From positions 70,431 through 134,430 of the forward strand of contig NZ_AWTC01000009.1 of assembly GCF_000497245.1 (NCBI RefSeq): a stretch of 64,000 nt of DNA, given 5' to 3'. The notes below the pieces were generated by a model. It worked only from the letters and a program-made list of their open reading frames with translations, ran no database searches and was not told the origin of the DNA. The translations under genes and the position numbers were made by a program. The number at the start of each line of letters is the position of its first letter. Within the stretch, counting starts at the first letter, position 1. The DNA comes from Sporolactobacillus laevolacticus DSM 442. GTDB taxonomy: Bacteria > Bacillota > Bacilli > Bacillales > Sporolactobacillaceae. Below, in pieces: positions 1 to 61,462 of the stretch.

Positions 1-303
1 AGAAGGTTCTTCTGCTAAAATCATGCACGTCCTGTGCATAACGCAGAAGTCACCGCATCCTGCGGAAGTTCTGTGTCAACTTGTTTCTACGCTCCTCGCG
101 TATTAACAGGAGAACTTCAACTAAGAGCGCGTACGTCCTGTACGCAACGTTGAAGTCACTACATCCTGTAGAAGTACAACTGGTGCTCGAAACTGCGTTT
201 CCTTGATCTTCGACGCCCAGGACGGGCTAGTGTCAGGCATGCCACAGAACGTGGCGTTTTGCCTGACCTCGGCCCTTTTTGTCCTCCTTTTTGAACAGAC
301 TCT
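1..303. repeat. Structured intergenic repeat, family A, copy 1 (left end outside window)
   Basis: This copy ends at the same sequence as the complete copy at 3905-4170; its right end is CTTTTTGAACAGACTCT (287-303). It holds two hairpin pairs. The first is ATGCAC(23-28)/GTGCAT(34-39) with loop gtcct, followed by CCGCA(53-57)/TGCGG(61-65) with loop tcc. The second is GCGTAC(129-134)/GTACGC(140-145) with loop gtcct, followed by CTACA(159-163)/TGTAG(167-171) with loop tcc. A nested stem, GTCAGGC...GCCTGAC around GCCAC/GTGGC, lies at about 232-276 and is absent from copy 2. The minus-strand open frame across it has no homology I recognise and is taken as spurious. Confidence 0.8.
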
Positions 304-2985: not shown

Positions 2986-3882
2986 TTGAAGAAACAGTTA
3001 GATGATTTTTTATCTGTTCTGATTCAGGAACGTGGTCTATCTGAGAACACCATTGAAGCCTATCGAGGTGACTTATACCAATATCTTGATTTTTTAATAA
3101 AGAATACGGATTGCACAATATGGACGGATGTTACCGACTTGACTGTTATGAAGTATCTTTATTATTTGAAAGATCAGGGCAATGCAGCTTCAACACTTGC
3201 GAGAAAAGCGGCCGCGGTTCGCGGTTTTCATCGATACCTGTTGCGCAGTCACCAGGTGAATCACGATCCTTCCTTTAGCATGGATTTGCCAAAAGCAGAG
3301 AAGAAACCTTTGCCATCGATGCTTACTGTGAAACAAACGGAACAGCTCTTGGCGGCACCCGATACACAAACCGCGTTAGGAAGACGCGATAAAGCGATGA
3401 TGGAGGTTCTGTATGCAACGGGTATGCGTGTCTCAGAATGTATCCAATTAAATCGTGAAGATTTGAATCTTGAATTGGAATTTATCCGTTGTGTTGGTAA
3501 AAAGGGCAGTGAGCGAATTTTGCCTCTCAATCAGCCGGCGATTCAAGCACTTGAGTCTTATTTATCACTGAGTGATGAACCAAAGGAATCGCATTTGGGA
3601 CAGCCATTATTTATGAACCGATTGGATAATCGTTTGACGAGACAGGGCATTTGGAAGATCATCAAGCATTATGCAGAATTGGCTGATATTTCAATACAGA
3701 TGTCTCCAGAGACACTTCGCCATTCCCTCACTGCCCATTTACTGCAAAATGGAGCGGATTTGGAATTTGTTGATGAATTGATGGGACGAGCCAATAATTC
3801 TGCAGCGATGAGGTATCCTCGGCCTAATCGACTGCCACTGAAAGAAGTTTATGCACGCTTTCATCCTCGTGCACATTCATAG
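2986..3882 (+). CDS. xerD: XerD-like tyrosine recombinase lacking two catalytic histidines
   Basis: XerD with XerC resolves chromosome dimers at dif. The 298-residue protein has the N-terminal SAM-like core-binding domain (about 1-90) and the tyrosine recombinase domain (about 105-295). Arg in ATGMRVSE, the hairpin Lys in GKKGSER, Arg in TLRHS and the nucleophile Tyr in AMRYP are present. However, box II reads SPETLRHS where the family has SPHTLRH (His to Glu), and GHAD reads GRAN (second His to Arg). Both positions are catalytic in E. coli XerD (H244, H270). The frame is intact and the position next to yqzK is as in B. subtilis. TTG start with GGAG about 10 nt upstream. It may be a weak, repurposed or inactive recombinase. 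Confidence 0.88.
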   Translation: MKKQLDDFLSVLIQERGLSENTIEAYRGDLYQYLDFLIKNTDCTIWTDVTDLTVMKYLYYLKDQGNAASTLARKAAAVRGFHRYLLRSHQVNHDPSFSMDLPKAEKKPLPSMLTVKQTEQLLAAPDTQTALGRRDKAMMEVLYATGMRVSECIQLNREDLNLELEFIRCVGKKGSERILPLNQPAIQALESYLSLSDEPKESHLGQPLFMNRLDNRLTRQGIWKIIKHYAELADISIQMSPETLRHSLTAHLLQNGADLEFVDELMGRANNSAAMRYPRPNRLPLKEVYARFHPRAHS

Positions 3883-3904
3883 TACAATTGATGGGGATCA
3901 AATT

Positions 3905-4170
3905 AGAGGGTGTTCAAAAAGTCCGGGAAAAGGTAAGAAGGATCTTCTGCTAATAGCGTGCACGTCCTGTGCGCAACGCAGAAGTCACCACATCCTGTGG
4001 AAGTTCTGCGTCAACTTGTTTCTCCGCTCCTCACGTATTAACAGGGGAACTTCGACTAACAACACTCACGTCCTGTGAGTAACGTCGAAGTCGAAAGTAC
4101 GCTCTGGTGCTCGAAACGTCGTTTCCTTGTCCTTCTCGGCCCTTTTTGTCCTCCTTTTTGAACAGACTCT
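3905..4170. repeat. Structured intergenic repeat, family A, complete copy with terminal inverted repeats
   Basis: The ends AGAGGGTGTTCAAAAAG (3905-3921) and CTTTTTGAACAGACTCT (4154-4170) are inverted repeats matching at 15 of 17 positions. Inside, CTTCTGC(3944-3950)/GCAGAAG(3978-3984) encloses GCAC/GTGC with loop gtcct; a second hairpin CCACA(3988-3992)/TGTGG(3996-4000) has loop tcc. A further unit has outer stem ACTTCGAC(4049-4056)/GTCGAAGT(4084-4091) around ACTCAC/GTGAGT with loop gtcct. No coding content. It fills the xerD-pupG gap, where B. subtilis carries drm. Confidence 0.85.
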
Positions 4171-4194
4171 ATTACATAAATGGAGAGATGAAAA

Positions 4195-5004
4195 ATGAAG
4201 CCAATAGAAGAAGTAATGGAAGTAATTAAGAAAAAGACGAATCAATCACCGGTTATCGGACTAATACTTGGTTCCGGACTGGGGGATCTCGCTGAAGATA
4301 TTGAAGGCGCAGTAAACATTCCTTACCGTTCCCTTCCGCACTTTCCCGAACCGACAGTAAAGGGCCACAAAGGTCAGTTCGTGATCGGCAAACTCGAAGG
4401 AAAGACAGTAGTCGCCATGCAAGGACGTTATCATCACTATGAGGGCTATTCGCTTGCACAGGTAGCTTTCCCCGCCTATGTCATGAAGGCGATGGGTATT
4501 CAAAAGCTGATCGTTACCAATGCGTGCGGTGGCATCAATGTTGATTTCAATCCTGGCGATCTTATGCTGATTACCGATCATATCAATATGCTTGGTGACA
4601 GTCCGCTGATCGGGCCAAATGACGACGAGTGCGGTCCGCGTTTTCCGGATATGTCGCGGGCTTACGATCCAGAATTGATTCAAAAGGCAAAGGATGCTGC
4701 TTCTGCGCTCAACATTAATGTTCGTCAAGGCGTTTATCTTGCAACACACGGACCACAATACGAAACACCTGCCGAGATCCGGATGATGCGAGTGATGGGG
4801 GCAGATGCTGTCGGTATGTCAACTGTCCCTGAAGTCACAGCAGCTAGTCACATGGGTCTCAATGTACTTGGTATTTCCTGTATCACCAACATGGCATGCG
4901 GCATACTCGATCAACCACTTAATCATAAAGAAGTTATTGAAACAGCAAATCGTGTGAAAGCAGATTTTACAGCGCTGATCAAATCCATCATTCGTTCAAT
5001 ATAA
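4195..5004 (+). CDS. pupG: Purine nucleoside phosphorylase
   Basis: This cytosolic trimeric-type phosphorylase cleaves guanosine and inosine class nucleosides to the free base and ribose 1-phosphate in purine salvage. The 269-residue product shows the family's phosphate-binding GSGLG near residue 27, GRYHHYEGY, NACGGIN and the base-binding region HGPQYETPAEIR, with GMSTVPEV. Length is normal. In B. subtilis the partner phosphopentomutase gene drm lies directly upstream; here a repeat element occupies that place. The ATG follows GGAGAGATGAAAA. A strong terminator follows. Confidence 0.95.
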   Translation: MKPIEEVMEVIKKKTNQSPVIGLILGSGLGDLAEDIEGAVNIPYRSLPHFPEPTVKGHKGQFVIGKLEGKTVVAMQGRYHHYEGYSLAQVAFPAYVMKAMGIQKLIVTNACGGINVDFNPGDLMLITDHINMLGDSPLIGPNDDECGPRFPDMSRAYDPELIQKAKDAASALNINVRQGVYLATHGPQYETPAEIRMMRVMGADAVGMSTVPEVTAASHMGLNVLGISCITNMACGILDQPLNHKEVIETANRVKADFTALIKSIIRSI

Positions 5005-37398: not shown

Positions 37399-37439
37399 GG
37401 TTCATCTTGAACATGACTTTGCTGAACCAAGTCTTCTAA
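37396..37439. repeat. 44-bp direct repeat, copy 1
   Basis: It begins at the ypeB stop codon (TAAGG) and ends GTCTTCTAA. The second copy lies 114 bp further on and differs by one inserted T. The two flank a segment with a family A hairpin pair. Confidence 0.9.
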
Positions 37440-37491
37440 CACTCGTCATTAGAGAAAAAAGAATAAAGAAAGGAGGAAACAAGTGTAAGTG

Positions 37492-37544
37492 GTCGGATAA
37501 AACGCCACGTCCTGTGGCATATCCGACATTAGGTCATCCTGACC
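37492..37544. repeat. Solo family A hairpin pair between ypeB and ypfA
   Basis: Outer stem GTCGGAT(37492-37498)/ATCCGAC(37521-37527) encloses GCCAC(37504-37508)/GTGGC(37514-37518) with loop gtcct; it is followed by GGTCA(37532-37536)/TGACC(37540-37544) with loop tcc. The loops and their order match those of the family A copies at 1-303 and 3905-4170, while the stem sequences are different. Confidence 0.75.
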
Positions 37545-37552
37545 GTCACGAC

Positions 37553-37597
37553 TAAGGTTCATCTTTGAACATGACTTTGCTGAACCAAGTCTTCTAA
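37553..37597. repeat. 44-bp direct repeat, copy 2
   Basis: This is a near-exact copy of 37396-37439 with one extra T. It contains the duplicated ypeB stop triplet but no coding sequence. It lies 94 bp before the ypfA start. Confidence 0.9.
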
Positions 37598-61386: not shown

Positions 61387-61410
61387 AAAATAGTTTGAGC
61401 ATACTGCTTA

Positions 61411-61453
61411 CGTGGTTCGAAACCATCCCACGTTTATCAAAAAACTAAGGAGG
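61411..61453 (+). ncRNA. PreQ1-I riboswitch upstream of queT
   Basis: P1 is CGTGG (61411-61415) with CCACG (61428-61432); the loop carries TTCGAAACCATC, and the A-rich tail AAAAAACTAAGGAGG (61439-61453) would fold back to complete the H-type pseudoknot. The tail runs into the AAGGAGG ribosome-binding site, so preQ1 binding would block translation. The fold and the downstream queuosine-precursor transporter fit class I preQ1 switches. Confidence 0.88.
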
Positions 61454-61462
61454 AGTTTTTTA

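Follow-up and report, generated by a model that had tools for sequence, protein, structure and literature searches.

Bacillaceae-1 (RF01690) two-hairpin modules of a MITE-like element in Sporolactobacillus laevolacticus as candidate mobile CsrA-binding RNA

The two-hairpin units that recur in a 64,000-nucleotide stretch of Sporolactobacillus laevolacticus DSM 442 (contig NZ_AWTC01000009.1, positions 70,431 to 134,430; this whole stretch is called the window below) belong to the Rfam family RF01690, Bacillaceae-1 RNA, and in this genome many such units sit as modules in a short repeat with the features of a miniature inverted-repeat transposable element (MITE). Genomes that contain such modules nearly always encode CsrA, and we consider it somewhat likely, from the sequence comparisons presented here, that the modules are mobile CsrA-binding RNA units read on the strand opposite to Rfam's. 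The reverse strand of RF01690 was already proposed as a CsrA-binding RNA in 2014 (PMC4333381). What is new here is the modular mobile carrier, the tie to csrA across genomes and the controlled strand count; a survey of titles and abstract openings, with most subscription journals outside its scope, returned neither a published description of the carrier MITE nor a published test of the CsrA proposal.

A search with the Rfam covariance model finds five units in the window above the RF01690 gathering cut-off of 35 bits, all on the + strand, and their E-values within the single 64 kb window (2.3e-09 to 0.0014) place them above chance. These units, an inverted one that falls just short of the cut-off, and the elements and genes around them are as follows.

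1..302, + strand: right part of MITE-like copy 1, with a terminal inverted repeat (TIR) at both ends of the copy and a TAAAA duplication on both sides (L040)
3..66, + strand: RF01690 module with hairpins A and B, 57.9 bits
105..172, + strand: RF01690 module, 60.2 bits
214..277 (C9:70644-70707), - strand: RF01690-like module, inverted, in the third slot of copy 1, 34.9 bits, narrowly below the cut-off of 35
2986-3882, + strand: tyrosine recombinase gene, XerC/D-like, adjoining copy 2 (Pfam and ORFs)
3906..4169, + strand: MITE-like copy 2, with TIRs and the flanks AATTA and TATTA, alike at 4 of 5 positions
3906..3921, + strand: left TIR of copy 2 (inverted-repeat search)
3934..4001, + strand: RF01690 module with both hairpins, 63.7 bits, E 2.3e-09
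4040..4094, + strand: RF01690 module with the outer stem and hairpin A only, 41.5 bits
4154..4169, - strand: right TIR of copy 2 (inverted-repeat search)
4195-5004, + strand: nucleoside phosphorylase gene, adjoining copy 2 (Pfam and ORFs)
37481..37545, + strand: single RF01690 module flanked by 33-nt direct repeats, 38.9 bits

The family identity of these units is certain. A preliminary description of the window had held that no named family of this layout was known, which is wrong, as the units score above the RF01690 cut-off; it had also called for a comparison with Rfam and listed a match to a known family as the outcome that would speak against it, and that comparison, now run, returned exactly such a match. 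A new, nameless family is thereby ruled out. The description of the units themselves fared better. Hairpin A with its loop GTCCT and hairpin B lie where they had been placed, the loop of B being ATCCT, which shortens to TCC when its A and T are taken as paired, and the second unit of copy 2 indeed lacks hairpin B (4040-4094 contains hairpin A and the outer stem). All three places named for the repeats contain units; the extent given for copy 1 was incomplete, as the window edge cuts it, and its additional inverted module at 214-277 had been missed. The RUCCU loops and compensatory stems by which RF01690 is recognized are found in the units, with the hairpin A-only unit at 4040-4094 as the exception. 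A PreQ1 riboswitch (RF00522, + strand, 40.9 bits against a cut-off of 39) lies elsewhere in the window, at 61406-61454.

Copy 1 starts at C9:70336, 95 bp upstream of the window, and ends at window position 302, with an exact 5-bp target duplication, TAAAA, whose right-hand copy occupies 303-307. In copy 2, the inverted repeat 3904-3921/4154-4171 is 89% complementary; the TIRs that had been reported for this full copy are correct and are backed by the 5-bp target duplications of sister copies. The ORF list contains no ORF of 100 aa inside copy 2. A consensus scan of 3800-4300 found no promoter, and the one terminator-like site in this region (0.2 expected), on the reverse strand at 4081-4063, is the second module's hairpin A. 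The third copy is organized differently: its lone module lies between identical 33-nt direct repeats (37407-37439 and 37565-37597, spacing 158), and no terminal repeats of the copy 1 and copy 2 kind are visible in the sequence around the unit. A 31-nt form of this flanking repeat was found only at 37556-37586 when the window was searched with up to 3 mismatches.

Across the S. laevolacticus genome (3.59 Mb, 32 contigs) there are 74 RF01690 matches, 69 of them over the cut-off, at 42 loci. One unit is present at 21 loci, two at 12, three at 7 and four at 2, with the counts being approximate where neighbouring matches overlap at an N (C9:70366/70429 and C8:85204/85267). Tandem modules may be collapsed at these Ns, near C9 70430 and near C8 85268. 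The other four-unit locus, C1:179943-180304 (L053), is enclosed by a single pair of carrier ends. Module orientations are mixed at 10 of the 42 loci, and the loops of the model-found units read RTCCT in 62 of 68 cases for hairpin A and in 63 of 67 for hairpin B.

Each unit consists of an outer stem that encloses hairpin A followed by hairpin B, and the stems are kept by compensatory change. We built a gap-free alignment from 63 of 103 units in relatives that fit this layout, those left out having mostly a 65-nt layout or being near copies. Standard pairs make up 96.5% of its 1008 cells, compared with 71.6% after shuffling; part of this value, like the constancy of the loops, is built in, as RTCCT loops and a threshold number of Watson-Crick pairs in the stems were required when the units were chosen. 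The covariation score of the alignment is 0.641, versus 0.167 when shuffled and 0.04-0.10 when slid, and changes on both sides occur at 14 of 16 pairs, a number reached by 2 of 500 shuffles. The number of pair types shows no excess over shuffles (186/500). The comparison was repeated with only the loops and spacing fixed, leaving out the closing pairs and taking the better of two registers for the outer stem in both groups. Among the matches listed, stems A, B and outer are Watson-Crick paired at 97%, 89% and 82% in Bacillus-related records (47 matches in 42 records), as opposed to 38%, 32% and 36% in records of other groups (38 matches in 38 records). The stem filter was passed by 39 of these 47 Bacillus-related matches and by 0 of the 38 others, again among the matches listed; the 38 other-group records, out of 80 listed, are chance matches, none of which passes. 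This loops-and-spacing-only test, together with the RTCCT counts given above, bears out the earlier observation of near-constant loops beside stems that vary yet stay paired, and the covariation score and the contrast in pairing with other phyla support its reading as selection on base-paired structure.

The carrier was recognized by its ends, GAGGGTGTTCAAAAAG at the left and CTTTTTGAACAGACTC at the right, one of each being found in 26 of 40 fetched stretches with 156-417 bp between TIR ends. Exact 5-bp duplications flank 10 of these 26 elements (shuffled mean 1.4, maximum 5 in 2000 shuffles), and the flanks are alike at 4 or more of 5 positions in 16 of the 26 (shuffled mean 6.7). The same carrier, with one module and TATTA on both flanks, occurs in a Sporolactobacillus shoreicorticis record (L112). 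We call the carrier MITE-like because of its terminal inverted repeats and 5-bp target duplications; it is a non-autonomous element with many copies in the S. laevolacticus genome. Neither an autonomous insertion sequence nor an autonomous partner with the same TIR was seen when the ORFs at 7 further TIR sites were inspected by eye; one of these sites, L336, proved to contain a short TIR pair. An alignment of ten carrier copies, in which row L070 aligns poorly, reveals a common scaffold with three module slots, one close to each end and one midway between them; the module close to the right end is inverted. Individual elements contain from none to four modules. About 17 short carrier copies lie at sites without an RF01690 match in this genome, and the five empty copies that were fetched and paired are each 156 bp long. 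Across nine slot-1 copies, nucleotide diversity is 0.000 in the outer stem, 0.04-0.09 in the loops, 0.08-0.15 in the A and B stems and 0.10-0.13 in the scaffold. Module and scaffold values thus overlap, and these nine copies give no sign of purifying selection on the modules after insertion.

The module also occurs in other surroundings. A second apparent carrier, with AAAAGCGGAAGCGCC-like left and GCCTCCGACAAGCATAAGAC-like right sequences, was seen in a flank comparison around many units of a 64-nt layout in other records (L090, L101, L102, L122, L170, L195 and others). Given that the flanks differ among the MITE, this AAAAGCGGAAGCGCC/GCCTCCGACAAGCATAAGAC carrier and the 33-nt direct repeats of copy 3, we infer that the module predates each of its carriers. 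In a scan of 104 viral stretches, unit-like matches were found in three (L265, L296 and L306). The match in L265 looks like chance; the full module layout is present on the viral-classed IMG/VR contigs L296 and L306, with three units on the latter, and these units may lie in prophage flanks.

The link to CsrA begins with the loops. On the reverse strand they read C-AGGAY-G, most often 5' ACAGGAYGU, which is near the CsrA consensus RUACARGGAUGU with its GGA within a hairpin loop (review, PMC7652899); the reverse-strand loop is one base shorter than the SELEX site, between ACA and GGA. CsrA is a homodimer (PMC4333381), and csrA is present in the S. laevolacticus genome. Among 397 genomes sampled from the same order, 198 contain RF01690, 375 contain csrA and 195 contain both. 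In Fisher tests that treat relatives as independent, so that co-occurrence is confounded by descent with phylogeny only partly controlled, this corresponds to RF01690 in 195 of 375 csrA+ versus 3 of 22 csrA- genomes (p 6e-4), the 22 csrA- genomes including G357 (confirmed) and G376 (by absence from the csrA matches). A class-wide sample of 348 genomes, which shares genomes with the order sample and like it was searched for RF01690 with stricter filters, gives 76 with RF01690, 207 with csrA and 73 with both, or 73 of 207 csrA+ versus 3 of 141 csrA- genomes (p 7e-16). Outside the order, RF01690 is found in 11 of 26 families having csrA versus 0 of up to 17 families without a csrA+ genome in the sample (p 0.0014). 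Within Gottfriedia, it is found in 2 of 3 csrA+ genomes (26, 55 and 0 matches) versus 0 of 10 csrA- genomes (p 0.038), and in each of the genera g87 and g59 a single csrA- genome is without RF01690, which its csrA+ congeners contain. In g54, g148, g191 and g201, one csrA- genome each does contain it. The six csrA- genomes with RF01690 are G034 (2 matches), G052 (10), G053 (6), G476 (1), G580 (7) and G643 (1). A relaxed search of G034, G052 and G053, extended to E 10, gave no csrA match above the cut-off; in G476, which is in 420 contigs, the absence of csrA is possibly due to an assembly gap. RF01690 counts vary widely among relatives, up to at least 12 per genome. In Gottfriedia (G207 and G296; L368-L427), 38 of 60 stretches have RTCGT in place of RTCCT as the loop of hairpin B, such that the CsrA-like motif is lost from their B; hairpin A keeps RTCCT in 51 of the 60 fetched stretches.

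According to PMC4333381, the discoverers of RF01690 were unsure of the strand adopted by Rfam, and the reverse complement fits the CsrA-binding motif. Wobble pairs bear on this choice, as G-T is a wobble on Rfam's strand and A-C corresponds to a G-U wobble on the reverse strand. When only the loops are fixed and the outer stem is counted without its end pair, the 47 Bacillus-related matches among the matches listed contain 25 A-C versus 5 G-T (p 3e-4), contributed by 19 and 4 records, respectively; requiring also TA before the loop leaves 14 versus 2 among the matches listed. The control from other phyla is even, with 62 A-C versus 56 G-T among the matches listed (p 0.65). The filtered 63 units give 23 versus 2, with 12 of the A-C at the end pair. 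The lean is weaker in other sets, and the sets overlap: 39 further pattern loci with TA required give 5 versus 3 (p 0.73), and 134 filtered units that include the S. laevolacticus genome give 30 versus 16 (p 0.054), or 25 versus 15 when distinct states are counted (p 0.15). By group, A-C versus G-T counts are 14/9 in S. laevolacticus, 16/6 in pattern-picked and 0/2 in model-picked units, 3/1 in Gottfriedia, where only 8 units passed the layout filter, and 3/0 in the csrA- exceptions. All three units that were folded have shuffle z-scores in favour of the + strand, although free energy is lower on the reverse strand in two of them. The gene context is neutral: as called by a simple ORF caller, the genes flanking 93 classed loci are opposite to the unit at 34, on the same strand at 30, convergent at 13 and divergent at 16, apart from 6 loci inside ORFs, 1 mixed locus and loci without an ORF on one side. 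A 3' UTR element with a fixed strand was rejected, given the lack of orientation bias in these loci. Overall, the wobble counts lean to the reverse strand.

CsrA binding best explains the loop letters, the pairing of hairpins (CsrA being a homodimer), the link to csrA and the uneven wobble counts. The functional RNA would be read from the strand opposite to Rfam's, with C-AGGAY-G loops, and the paired GGA hairpins of one module would bind a CsrA dimer. Transcribed modules could act as CsrA decoys or as CsrA sites placed in the transcripts where they land, and transposition would change the number of CsrA sites per genome.

The hairpins could instead act as DNA, as a single-stranded or cruciform substrate in the spreading of the element, with no role as RNA and with only well-paired copies able to move. 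Only 25 of the 1008 cells in the filtered set are wobbles, whichever the sense, and so few are unusual in an RNA stem; the orientation of the units is unbiased relative to genes, both orientations are present at 10 of 42 loci, and the module is carried by differing flanking repeats, all of which speaks for such a mechanism. However, the carrier has TIRs and target duplications of the kind that DDE transposases make, and the hairpins are not needed for its movement, as numerous 156-bp copies have no RF01690 match. A DNA substrate also leaves unexplained the csrA link, the uneven wobbles and the agreement of the loop letters with a known RNA-binding site. Both the csrA link and the wobble asymmetry lean towards RNA rather than a DNA cruciform, and we regard this alternative as unlikely.

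Less likely again is an RNA read from Rfam's own strand, with RUCCU loops and an AAGGA 5' of the outer stem that pairs with a loop to form a pseudoknot or switch. In relatives, 90 units show a conserved AAGGA directly 5' of the outer stem (A 74%, G 76%, G 92% and A 85% at -5 to -2), its AGGA is complementary to UCCU, and the shuffle z-scores are lower for the + strand in all three units. Against this, G-T pairs are scarce (5 versus 25 A-C with the loops alone fixed, the control being 56 versus 62, among the matches listed), and complementarity between AAGGA and the loops exists on both strands. Covariation provides no test of this pairing, because the loops hardly vary. CsrA binding gives no account of the AAGGA. 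Finally, it is improbable that the repeats are plainly selfish, with functionless passenger modules and a csrA link from shared ancestry only: the overlapping module and scaffold diversity of the nine slot-1 copies, the six csrA- genomes that keep units and the widely differing match numbers would suit such passengers, but compensatory change across genera needs selection somewhere, and the module recurs with different flanking repeats.

If the modules are indeed CsrA-binding units, a broader picture can be offered tentatively, as one that may well prove mistaken. MITEs with zero to four two-hairpin modules at fixed slots would form a CsrA decoy of Gram-positive bacteria that is both mobile and modular. 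Alongside FliW, the dose of CsrA-binding RNA would be set by transposition and by the gain or loss of modules, and genomes lacking csrA would have lost their modules or never acquired any. A regulator's decoy RNA would then be spread by transposable repeats. A review notes that joint action of FliW and sRNAs on CsrA has yet to be established or excluded for any species (PMC7652899). BSGatlas lists 8 Bacillaceae-1 RNAs in B. subtilis that were absent from earlier B. subtilis resources, so that this species has at least 8 copies (PMC8208703). With RF01690 in 195 of 375 csrA+ genomes of the order and these copies in B. subtilis, the question of FliW and sRNAs becomes testable in a laboratory strain.

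The window units share with the described Bacillaceae-1 RNA the two hairpins, the RUCCU loops, scores exceeding the curated cut-off and occurrence in many Bacillus-related genera; Rfam types the family as 'Gene; sRNA', whereas many of the copies described here are carried, in either orientation, as modules of a mobile repeat. The carrier resembles MITEs such as RUP of Streptococcus pneumoniae in being short and gene-free, with TIRs, AT-rich target duplications and many copies, and differs in that its duplications are 5-bp and no autonomous partner was seen at the 7 further TIR sites. In BOX elements of S. pneumoniae, which are also repeats, the number of internal modules (boxB) varies, as it does in the carrier. 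This likeness is one of layout only: the host is another, the sequence presumably so, and the modules of the carrier belong to an RNA family with two hairpins. CsrA-binding sRNAs of the CsrB/RsmZ type have several hairpins with GGA in the loop, as the modules have in pairs on their reverse strand; they are known from Gammaproteobacteria as sRNA genes (PMC4333381), whereas here the putative binders are many short modules scattered over the genome.
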